A DNA stretch of 39,384 bases, from positions 1 to 39,384 of the forward strand of contig CANPVS010000019.1 in the NCBI GenBank assembly GCA_947581795.1. Reading direction: 5' to 3'. Below are positions 4,167-36,504 of this stretch, piece by piece. Every line of letters begins with the position of its first letter. Position 1 is the stretch's first letter. The position numbers and the translations under genes are program-made. The notes beneath the pieces were generated by a model that was given only the letters and a program-made list of their open reading frames with translations, was not told where the DNA came from and searched no databases. This stretch comes from an uncultured Oscillospiraceae bacterium. Its GTDB lineage: Bacteria; Bacillota; Clostridia; Oscillospirales; Oscillospiraceae.

Positions 4167-4253
4167 TGGTACCGGCGGCGGGGCTTGAACCCGCACGTCC
4201 CGAGGGACAAGGGATTTTAAGTCCCTGGTGTCTGCCAATTCCACCACGCCGGC
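4167..4253 (-). tRNA. tRNA-Leu (anticodon UAA)
   Basis: 87 nt including an encoded CCA. The acceptor stem is GCCGGCG with CGCCGGU; the anticodon loop CTTAAAA sits between AGGGA and TCCCT and gives anticodon UAA; a long variable arm (TGTCCCTCGGGACG) marks a class II tRNA; the T arm contains GGTTCAAGCCC. Confidence 0.95.
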
Positions 4254-6336: not shown

Positions 6337-7197
6337 ATGGATTGGGTGACCGGGTTCCAGCGGGCGCTGGACTATATCGAGGCGCATCTGACCGGGGAGC
6401 TGGATATCTCCGCCGCCGCCCGGGAGGCGGCCTGTTCTCCCTTCTACTTCCAGCGTCTTTTCGGCATCCTCTGCGGCATGAGCCTGGGCGAATACGTCCG
6501 CTCCCGGCGACTGGCCGAAGCCGGCAGGGAATTGGCCGCCGGAGATGGAAAGGTCCTGGACATGGCGCTGAAGTACGGCTATGAGAGCCCGGAGAGTTTT
6601 GCCCGGGCCTTCCAGCGCTTCCACGGCGTCACGCCCTCGGAAGTCCGCCGCGGGGCCCATCCCCGATCCTTTGAGCCCTTCACCGTGCATATCACACTGA
6701 AAGGTGGTCACATCATGGACTGCAAGATCGTGGAAAAGCCCGCCCTCACCCTGCTGGAGCGGGTGGAACAGCACACAATCGTGGACTCCCAGAACGAGAA
6801 TACCATCCCTGATTTCTGGACCCGCGCCCAAGCGGACGGGACGCTGGAAAAGCTCCTGGCCCAGGCCCCGGACAAGACCTTTGTCTACGGCGTCTGCTAT
6901 GGCAACGCTCCCTCAGACGAGAAGACCTTTGACTACGCCATCGCGGCGGACTGCGGCGGCCCCGCGCCGGAGGGCTTCCGCCGGACGGTCATCCCCGCTC
7001 AGACCTGGGCGGTGTTTCCCTGCCGCGGCCCCATGCCGAAAGCCATCCAACAGCTCTGGCACCGGATCATCACGGAATACTTCCCCTCGTCCCGGTACGA
7101 GCCCACCTACGAGCTGGACATAGAGGCCTACCCCGACGGGGACATGTCCTCGCCGGACTATACCAGCGAGATCTGGGTCCCGGTCAGGGAGAAGTGA
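6337..7197 (+). CDS. AraC-family regulator with GyrI-like ligand domain
   Basis: 286 residues. An N-terminal AraC DNA-binding domain (about 5-105) has two helix-turn-helix units, with the typical FYFQRLF and GYESPESFARAFQRFHGVTPSEVR blocks. A GyrI-like (BmrR/Rob C-terminal type) small-molecule domain follows (about 112-286, ending in DIEAYPDGDM...EIWVPV). This is the Rob/SoxS-like architecture, usually a sensor of cationic or hydrophobic drugs. GGAGG at 6326-6330 fixes the start at 6337, although the frame is open from 6277. A TATGAT at 6306 may be its -10 box. No efflux pump gene is adjacent; the next gene has its own promoter and riboswitch. Confidence 0.9.
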   Translation: MDWVTGFQRALDYIEAHLTGELDISAAAREAACSPFYFQRLFGILCGMSLGEYVRSRRLAEAGRELAAGDGKVLDMALKYGYESPESFARAFQRFHGVTPSEVRRGAHPRSFEPFTVHITLKGGHIMDCKIVEKPALTLLERVEQHTIVDSQNENTIPDFWTRAQADGTLEKLLAQAPDKTFVYGVCYGNAPSDEKTFDYAIAADCGGPAPEGFRRTVIPAQTWAVFPCRGPMPKAIQQLWHRIITEYFPSSRYEPTYELDIEAYPDGDMSSPDYTSEIWVPVREK

Positions 7198-7201
7198 ACC
7201 C

Positions 7202-7231
7202 TTGACATATTCTCCCGGTCTGGACTATAAT
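7202..7231 (+). promoter_or_regulatory. Promoter of the riboswitch-permease unit
   Basis: TTGACA at 7202-7207, an 18-bp spacer and TATAAT at 7226-7231: near-perfect consensus, with transcription starting just before the riboswitch. Confidence 0.85.
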
Positions 7232-7238
7232 ATTGTTT

Positions 7239-7347
7239 TGTAAGAGGGAGTAGTTTGCGCGGGTCACCGCCCGCGTCCGGCGTCTCGTCAGTACGATCAT
7301 TTTGATCCGGGGCGCCGCAGATGTCCTGTCTGAAACGAGACTTTTAC
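7239..7347 (+). ncRNA. yybP-ykoY (manganese) riboswitch aptamer
   Basis: The order of conserved blocks fits the yybP-ykoY class: GGGAGTAG just after the 5' arm (7246-7253), a G/C hairpin (about 7257-7275), CGTCAGTACG, a GATC-closed hairpin, CCGGGGCGCCGCAGATG and then TGAAACGAGAC before a CTTTTACC tail. The closing stem P1 is visible: GTAAGAG (7240-7246) pairs with CTTTTAC (7341-7347). That 3' strand is also part of the 5' arm of the terminator that follows, so ligand-bound P1 would prevent termination. This is the known ON-switch logic of the Mn2+-sensing class. The class was assigned by reading, not by a covariance search. Confidence 0.82.
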
Positions 7348-7378
7348 CGCGTCTTTCCCGCGGTAAAAGTCTTTTTTT
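7339..7378 (+). terminator. Riboswitch-controlled intrinsic terminator
   Basis: GACTTTTACCGCG (7339-7351) and CGCGGTAAAAGTC (7359-7371) form a perfect 13-bp stem followed by seven T (7372-7378). Its 5' arm overlaps the 3' strand of riboswitch stem P1, so the two folds exclude each other. Confidence 0.92.
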
Positions 7379-7406
7379 GATGCCTGATGTAAGAAGGAGG
7401 AACGCC

Positions 7407-8675
7407 ATGTCTGTCACCGCTCTGGTCCTATTCATCCTCACCTACTGCCTGATGATCGCCCTGCCCAGGTACCGGCCCTGGGTGGCGCTGTCCAGCGCTG
7501 TTCTGTACGTGGTCCTGGGCTTCGTGCCCCTGTCGGAGCTGGCGGGCGCGGTGGATTGGAACGTGCTGATGATGCTGGCCGGCACCATGGGCACGGTGAG
7601 CCTGTTCATCGAGTCGAAGATGCCCAACCGCATGGCGGAGGTCCTGCTGACCAAGACGCCCAACGTCATGTGGGTGGCGGTGGCCATGAGCCTGTTCGCC
7701 GGCGTTGTGAGCGCCTTTGTGGACAACGTGGCCACGGTGCTCATGCTGGCGCCGGTGGGGCTCGCCATCGCGGCGAAGCTGGGCACCAGCCCCGTGCCGC
7801 TGCTCATTTCCATCGCCGTGAGCTCCAACCTGCAGGGCGCGGCCACTCTGGTGGGCGACACCACCTCCATCATGCTGGGCGGCTACGCCAATATGGACTT
7901 TCTGGACTTCTTCTTCATGGACGGGAAGTTCTCCATTTTCTGGGCCGTGGAGCTGGGTGCCGTCATGACCGTGCCCATCATCCTGTGGCTGTTCCGGGAC
8001 CAGCGGGAGCCGGTCTCCATCCCCGATAAGACGGAAGTGACCAACTACGTCCCCTCCTGGCTTCTGGTGGGCACGGTGGTGCTGCTCATCTGCGCCAGCT
8101 TCATCCCCGGCAAACCGGCCATCACCAACGGCATCATCTGCTGCAGCGTGTTCCTGGTGGGCGCGCTCCACTCCCGCCTGCGGGAAAAAAGCTGGCATAA
8201 CGTGAAGGCGGCGTTTTTGGAGATCGACTACCAGACGCTCCTTCTCCTGGCGGGCCTCTTTATCGTCATCGAGGGCATCAACCGGGGTGGCGTCATCGAC
8301 GCCATCGCGGACCTGTTCGTCCGGCTGGGCGGCTCCAACCTGTTCGTGATGTACACCATCATCGTCTGGGGCTCGGTGCTCATCTCCGCCTTCGTGGACA
8401 ACATCCCCTACGTGGCCACCATGCTCCCCGTGGTCACCGGCATCGCCGCCACCATGGGCTGCTCGCCCATCCTTTTGTATTTCGGCCTTCTCACCGGCGC
8501 CACCCTGGGCGGCAATATCACCCCCATCGGCGCCTCCGCCAATATCACCGCCATCGGCATCCTGCGCCGGCAGGATTACGAGGTCAGCACCAGGGACTTC
8601 ATGCGTATCGGCGTGCCCTTCACCCTGGCCGCCGTGCTGACGGGCTACCTGTTCTGCTGGTTCGTTTGGCATTGA
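7407..8675 (+). CDS. ArsB/NhaD-type permease (ion-transporter superfamily)
   Basis: 422 residues, almost entirely membrane segments (about 10-12). The two halves are inverted-repeat-like: each has an AFVDN hairpin motif (FVDNVAT at 104-110, FVDNIPY at 329-335), and each has a second family block (GAATLVGDTTSIMLG at 144-158; GGNITPIGASANI at 368-380). These are marks of the ArsB/NhaD/CitMHS/P-protein superfamily, which moves anions or exchanges cations. GGAGG 7 bases before the ATG fixes the start. It is the only gene behind the Mn2+-type riboswitch, which argues for a role in manganese or metal homeostasis, probably export; the substrate cannot be read from the sequence. Databases would probably call it an SLC13-family permease. 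Confidence 0.9.
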   Translation: MSVTALVLFILTYCLMIALPRYRPWVALSSAVLYVVLGFVPLSELAGAVDWNVLMMLAGTMGTVSLFIESKMPNRMAEVLLTKTPNVMWVAVAMSLFAGVVSAFVDNVATVLMLAPVGLAIAAKLGTSPVPLLISIAVSSNLQGAATLVGDTTSIMLGGYANMDFLDFFFMDGKFSIFWAVELGAVMTVPIILWLFRDQREPVSIPDKTEVTNYVPSWLLVGTVVLLICASFIPGKPAITNGIICCSVFLVGALHSRLREKSWHNVKAAFLEIDYQTLLLLAGLFIVIEGINRGGVIDAIADLFVRLGGSNLFVMYTIIVWGSVLISAFVDNIPYVATMLPVVTGIAATMGCSPILLYFGLLTGATLGGNITPIGASANITAIGILRRQDYEVSTRDFMRIGVPFTLAAVLTGYLFCWFVWH

Positions 8676-8706: not shown

Positions 8707-8736
8707 TTGACAAAGGTGTAGATAAAAATCTATATT
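8707..8736 (+). promoter_or_regulatory. Promoter of the deacetylase gene
   Basis: TTGACA at 8707-8712, 18-bp spacer, TATATT at 8731-8736. It lies in a short AT-rich gap after the permease. Confidence 0.75.
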
Positions 8737-36429: not shown

Positions 36430-36504
36430 GGTCCGAGTGACAGGGTTCGAACCTGCGGCCTGGTGGTCCCAAACCACCCGCGCTACCAACTGCGCTACAC
36501 CCGG
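36429..36504 (-). tRNA. tRNA-Pro (anticodon UGG)
   Basis: 76 nt including encoded CCA. Acceptor CCGGGTG with CACTCGG (one G-U); D arm GCGC/GCGC; anticodon loop TTTGGGA between GGTGG and CCACC gives UGG; T arm GCAGG-TTCGAAC-CCTGT. Confidence 0.95.

Follow-up and report, generated by a model that had tools for sequence, protein, structure and literature searches.

The closest known counterparts of the leader analyzed here are riboswitches of the yybP-ykoY class (RF00080), such as those of E. coli mntP and of L. lactis yoaB, which share with it the L1 motif GGGAGUAG, a four-way junction and a discriminating adenosine in L3. In L. lactis, as in our leader, one P1.1 strand is common to the terminator, giving an ON switch (as described in PMC11087558). 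Such a manganese riboswitch in front of a transporter gene is a known kind of arrangement. Bacterial manganese exporters are listed in PMC13274385 as CDF, MntP, UPF0016 and P-type ATPase proteins, with growing evidence for TerC. Genes for MntP and for P-type ATPases also follow switches of this class in the order to which our DNA belongs. To our knowledge, none of the MntP, P-type ATPase, TerC, UPF0016 and CDF manganese efflux proteins belongs to the IT superfamily. In the window (the whole 39,384-base stretch that we analyzed), the switch stands before a permease of that superfamily. The original prediction knew of no ArsB/NhaD-type permease among the described members of the regulon, and our searches agree as far as they reached: we found no description of the pairing, which Dambach 2015 or Price 2015 may mention, and nothing joining manganese, riboswitch and CitMHS.

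The transcription unit lies on the plus strand and is organized much as had been predicted. It begins with a sigma-70 promoter (TTGACA-18-TATAAT, 7202–7231) that matches the consensus at 12 of 12 positions; the segment 6500–9500 contains 3 promoter-like sites, against a mean of 0.6 in shuffled sequences, and by eye promoter-like elements also precede the 24 same-genus leaders. Transcription probably starts at about 7238–7240, the 5′ strand of P1.1. The permease gene is a single ORF for 422 residues, running from ATG 7407 to the stop at 8675 (the mechanical ORF list placed its start at an upstream TTG, 7302, within the leader; we use ATG 7407). A second promoter-like site (TTGACA-18-TATATT, 8707–8736, plus strand, 11 of 12 matches) precedes the next gene, consistent with a riboswitch transcript carrying one gene, and the site listing gives no terminator-like site between 8675 and 8707. 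Elsewhere in the window there are two tRNA genes on the minus strand, at 4170–4253 and 36432–36504.

The aptamer spans 7240–7347 (plus strand) and comprises P1.1, P1.2, P2, P3 and P4 around a four-way junction, with the L1 motif given above and L3 reading GUCAGUAC. The switch helix P1.1 pairs GUAAGAG at 7240–7246 with 7341–7347. Two adenosines are invariant in 23 of 23 leaders and correspond to residues whose roles are described in PMC6754395: the one at 7249 in L1 is A10 of the solved aptamers, which makes the A-minor docking contact, and the one at 7290 in L3, which our R3 alignment (see below) places at the CA of the canonical loop, is the Mn2+-discriminating A41 of L. lactis and A48 of X. 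oryzae. An intrinsic terminator (7337–7380) follows on the same strand, with a 15-pair stem at 7337–7373 plus a T-run, and its 5′ arm contains the entire 3′ strand of P1.1, as predicted. The leader thus has the competition between a P1.1 strand and a terminator that characterizes the transcriptional members of the class. The same arm takes all seven P1.1 bases in 27 of the 29 leaders scanned (27 permease leaders, two duplicate pairs included, plus one PsiE-like and one MntP leader); in the two that the scan missed, L098 and L148, the same sequence is present and by eye makes a bulged stem.

Folding and comparative evidence agree with this anatomy. The segment 7238–7380 folds with z = -5.7, and 0 of 200 shuffles were as low. 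For the nascent aptamer (7238–7347) the minimum-energy fold is the four-way junction with P1.1 closed (-43.6), and for the full leader the terminator is favored, at -64.6 vs -49.1 when P1.1 and P1.2 are forced, a gap of 15.5 kcal/mol. Across 23 same-genus leaders the proposed helices are 96.0% paired, and sliding the partner strands lowers pairing to 30–47%. Two-sided changes affect 11 pairs and 49 cells, values reached by 2 of 500 and 0 of 500 shuffles; the 29 further pair types are ordinary by the same comparison (71 of 500). P1.1 itself is paired in 100% of cells with 5 of 7 pairs invariable, and because it hardly varies, covariation says little about this helix.

The check proposed with the original prediction, an Infernal search with the yybP-ykoY model, failed with the Rfam model and succeeded with a model of our own. 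RF00080 (Rfam release 15) gave no match at the gathering cut-off in the window, none at E ≤ 10 on 7100–7450, and none at E ≤ 10 in the whole genome (2.29 Mb, 84% complete). We regard this miss as weak evidence because the E. coli mntP riboswitch also falls under the 45-bit cut-off, at 41.6 bits. On 14 control genomes RF00080 gave 2 above its cut-off, and of the 19 genomes among 295 in the order that match at E ≤ 0.01, none reaches it. The gathering score of RF00080 defines the class poorly, and the model looks too narrow.

Since RF00080 is insensitive both to E. coli mntP and to members in this order, we built our own covariance models. R1, from 23 permease leaders (alignment A2, excluding L024, which MAFFT misaligned), recovers 11 of the 19 loci found by RF00080, with E-values from 5e-11 to 1.2e-3. 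R2, from 54 mixed sequences, matches 195 of 295 order genomes at E ≤ 0.001, a count that takes in the loci it was trained on, and gives no match at L040 and L046, both of them partial RF00080 hits. The strict test was R3, made from 17 of the 19 loci that RF00080 had found (L040 and L046 were dropped because R2 had no match there). R3, whose alignment (A7) was made with R2 and so with a model trained in part on permease leaders, hits the window at 7240–7347 with 49.1 bits and E 3.9e-10, its sole hit at E ≤ 10 in the 39,384 bases. It also finds E. coli mntP (45.3 bits, E 1.2e-9) and 54 of the 57 loci given to it, the exceptions being L017, where the gene start is missing, and L025 and L026, which have no leader; it misses E. 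coli alx and so cannot serve as a general detector. Through R3 the leader is homologous to accepted members in both sequence and structure, and this, together with covariation in the 23 leaders, makes us almost certain that it is a yybP-ykoY riboswitch, as originally claimed; its ligand is presumably Mn2+. The difference between 19 of 295 genomes with RF00080 (E ≤ 0.01) and 195 of 295 with R2 (E ≤ 0.001, some training loci included) implies that much of the manganese regulon of these bacteria may be unannotated.

One other RNA family resembles these leaders. The Streptococcus sRNA SSRC10 matches the window weakly at 7252–7378 (13.6 bits, E 4.4, cut-off 56) and L024 at 2778–2899 (32.3 bits against the same cut-off). 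We rejected it as the identity of the window leader, given the 13.6-bit score; its consensus contains GGGAGUAG, CGUCAAUACG, GAGACC and a terminator, and from this sequence SSRC10 may itself be a manganese riboswitch leader.

The pairing of switch and permease recurs. Within the genus, 26 of 35 genomes carry the permease and the leader precedes it in 24 of these (it is absent in G008 and G010; the G028 gene is split over two contigs and counted through L027). With R1, 29 switches come to light across these genomes: 24 precede the permease, 4 a PsiE-like gene and 1 a MntP gene, the last in G024, a genome without the permease. The PsiE-like membrane protein, about 210 residues long, follows a second riboswitch copy in four same-genus genomes (L072–L075); the L072 gene scores 23.4 bits, just below the Pfam cut-off of 23.9, and that in L074 is cut by a contig end. 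We also considered the permease as a replacement for MntP and rejected the idea: 20 of the 26 same-genus genomes with the permease hold two MntP-family genes. The window's own genome (84% complete) has only the weaker MntP-family gene, and of 20 same-genus MntP loci fetched, one, L078 in G024, has a switch.

Across the order, a clear orthologue (at least 54% identity) is present in 38 of 295 genomes, and 14 more have only a relative at 28–32%. At the 29 order-level orthologue loci beyond the window's own, the switch lies directly upstream in 6 (L096, L097, L098, L099, L100 and L107), and coordinates place one further pairing in G184. We also sampled a named collection through the best 80 of 591 confirmed relatives, mostly from uncultured Oscillospiraceae: 24 of these loci have a switch, in 22 cases 46–232 nt before the permease, and 58 of the 80 have none directly upstream, one of them (L189) with only 47 bases upstream. 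Five of those 22 pairings are same-genus contigs and two are order-level loci seen again, leaving about 22 distinct pairings beyond the same-genus set. On a quick permease tree of 119 sequences (113 different, 36 with the switch directly upstream) there are at least 13 label changes, 11 of them forced by well supported branches; the switch has been gained or lost at least 11 times. In a few loci the permease shares a switch with, or adjoins, another transporter gene: L109 reads riboswitch, CaCA gene, permease; L156 riboswitch, Na/Pi-like gene, permease; and in L115 and L169 the permease adjoins a riboswitch–P-type ATPase pair (the partners in L156 and L169 were named by eye).

Under crude ORF calling, each neighbor family is limited to at most 5 of the best 80 of 591 loci (two larger clusters, of 70 and 9 loci, correspond to the permease and to its antisense shadow), which leaves the riboswitch as the one flanking feature that we see shared. 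Guilt by neighborhood was accordingly set aside as an argument for a manganese role, which no conserved neighbor supports by itself. Nor did 20 order-level loci with switch-less orthologues give a gathering-level match to another RNA family nearby. The recurrence in 24 of 26 same-genus genomes and about 22 further loci agrees with the suggestion that homologues of the permease would carry the same riboswitch, and leaves us with very little doubt that a permease of the ArsB/DASS fold is under riboswitch control here.

The fold itself had been predicted as ArsB/NhaD-like, and we find that of ArsB and DASS transporters. The best Pfam match is CitMHS (PF03600, "Citrate transporter"; 194.7 bits vs a gathering value of 31.9), and ArsB (PF02040) also passes (33.2 vs 22.2 bits). 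The permease falls below the NCBIfam cut-offs for ArsB (49.3 vs 457, 43.5 vs 760 and 40.3 vs 415 bits) and for DASS (71.9 vs 198.6 bits), with DNV replacing the SNT motif of the latter. Its NCBIfam matches at E ≤ 0.001 include no NhaD model, and the NhaD part of the original label stays tentative. D106–N107, D151 and D331–N332 are invariant, which puts an Asp–Asn pair at the tips of both hairpins.

We propose that a transcriptional ON switch of the yybP-ykoY (Mn2+) class governs this one-gene unit. Transcription would begin at the 5′ strand of P1.1. At low Mn2+ the terminator (7337–7373) would capture the 3′ strand of P1.1 (7341–7347) and transcription would stop; at high Mn2+, L1 and L3 would dock around the metal and P1.1 would close, the terminator could then not form, and the permease would be made. 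The same ON mechanism is described for the L. lactis leader in PMC11087558. The permease would be an elevator-type secondary transporter of the IT superfamily, in which Mn2+ could be held between the two Asp–Asn tips and exported in exchange for H+; here we infer the direction of transport, the ion and the coupling. In favor of such a site, aspartates of the hairpins are reported to be essential in NhaB, another antiporter of the IT family (PMC9408914). On the strength of the regulatory link, we favor the permease as a candidate Mn2+ exporter, and we think it somewhat probable that the gene induced by Mn2+ encodes a cation exporter of the IT superfamily, most plausibly a Mn2+/H+ antiporter. 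A wider proposal is more tentative, and we would put it at slightly below even: that the permease founds an IT (ArsB/DASS) family of manganese exporters, working as a twin-Asp–Asn Mn2+/H+ antiporter, and is the genus's main Mn-responsive gene within a large manganese regulon of Oscillospiraceae-like gut bacteria that Rfam hides. Against reading it as an exporter, the majority of orthologues outside the genus have no switch immediately before the gene (58 of the best 80 of 591; 23 of 29 at order level).

What else the switch controls bears on the step from riboswitch to exporter. We examined 107 switches in the order, comprising 18 loci and 89 R2 hits (29 with loci, 60 among the matches listed); hits near contig ends were passed over, and the sample is non-random and leans to high R2 scores. 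After removal of two duplicates, the next gene at 105 switches encodes MntP in 29 cases, a P-type ATPase in 25, OAD_beta in 24, a CaCA protein in 16, the permease in 6 (L215 by coordinates) and a Na/Pi protein in 2, with 3 unresolved (targets were clustered by blastp, and families were named by Pfam searches with one or two representatives). OAD_beta, the beta subunit of Na+-transporting decarboxylases and one of three sodium-pump subunits, is therefore the third commonest gene under the switch in this sample (L033, L212, L214, L216 and 20 more). By eye, a further pump subunit lies downstream only in L270, with 10 of the 24 stretches offering fewer than 400 bases downstream. Na/Pi-cotransporter-type genes also lie under the switch in L219 (Pfam Na_Pi_cotrans and PhoU), L223 and L156 (assigned by eye). 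We take YrbG to be of the CaCA type. In V. vulnificus, yrbG is under a yybP-ykoY switch (PMC13274385). Because the class precedes OAD_beta, CaCA, Na/Pi and PsiE-like genes, a manganese riboswitch is no proof of a manganese exporter, and the breadth of targets in the order weakens that step.

This breadth speaks for a reading in which the riboswitch responds to Mn2+ and the permease, as a cation/H+ antiporter, mainly serves another ion (Na+ or Ca2+) or pH control, manganese stress demanding an adjustment of ions or pH rather than direct export. The superfamily also contains the Na+/H+ antiporters NhaB and NhaD, with the hairpin aspartates of NhaB reported to be essential (PMC9408914); TerC, a known regulon member, is described as acting in the metalation of exported enzymes (PMC10550928). 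The permease, however, mostly occurs alone and, within the genus, follows the switch more often than any other gene (24 of 29), and two symmetric carboxylates would suit a divalent ion; we consider a non-manganese antiporter unlikely. The substrate might instead be a metal–anion complex, with the switch tying the permease to Mn–citrate. B. subtilis CitM moves such a metal–citrate complex, and CitMHS is the best Pfam match, but the name says little because the same family includes E. coli YbiR. The hairpin tips, moreover, are acidic where dicarboxylate carriers have a neutral SNT, and the lack of a recurrent neighbor noted above also tells against transport of a complex, which we think improbable.

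Two further readings concern the RNA rather than the protein. The leader could descend from yybP-ykoY and now prefer another metal, such as Ca2+ or Cd2+: RF00080 fails to match it, and its L3, GUCAGUAC, departs from the R3 consensus AACAUAAU beyond the conserved CA. Against this, L1 and the adenosine that discriminates Mn2+ do not vary in the 23 leaders, the L. lactis L3 (UCAAUUC, as given in PMC6754395) is close to that of the window, and one same-genus switch (L071) precedes MntP, all of which makes a change of ligand quite improbable. That a terminator and hairpins merely resemble a riboswitch by chance would agree with the silence of RF00080, but the match to R3, a model of loci that RF00080 had found, the covariation and the conservation across dozens of loci reduce this to a negligible prospect. 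The reading that we prefer remains Mn2+-induced production of a candidate Mn2+ exporter.

Compared with the RF00080 class as described, then, the window leader is too divergent for the Rfam 15 model at E ≤ 10 and is distinguished by its L3 and a long, GC-rich P3, and as a target the permease family is, as far as our searches reached, undescribed. A possible distant parallel is E. coli YbiR, another CitMHS permease, annotated as a putative transporter, whose gene (L205, 2148–3266) shares its first 4 bases with the end of mntR; from sequence, YbiR and the permease are 23% identical over 111 residues (profile E 6e-5, probability 65%), YbiR has TND where the permease family has VDN, and a search by title and abstract gave nothing relevant on ybiR and manganese, so we treat it as a lead only. 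If our reading is true, a manganese-gated permease of the arsenite-pump fold adds a superfamily to the manganese exporters. Of DASS transporters (VcINDY, NaCT, NaS1), the permease has the fold and hairpin positions, with D-N-V in the first half aligned to the Ser-Asn-Thr of VcINDY and D-N-I in place of SNT in the second half, as read through the internal repeat. To the arsenite/H+ antiporter ArsB of L. ferriphilum (PDB 10tp) it is 16% identical, and D106/N107, D151 and D331/N332 align with A110/N111, D148 and N336/N337. Of the two proposed H+ sites of ArsB, Asp112 and Asp148 (PMC13381914), the permease keeps the second as D151 and has V108 at the first. The tips are Ala–Asn and Asn–Asn in ArsB, whereas the permease has Asp–Asn twice, and D106 and D331 would be an obvious place to look for metal selectivity relative to both ArsB and the DASS transporters.
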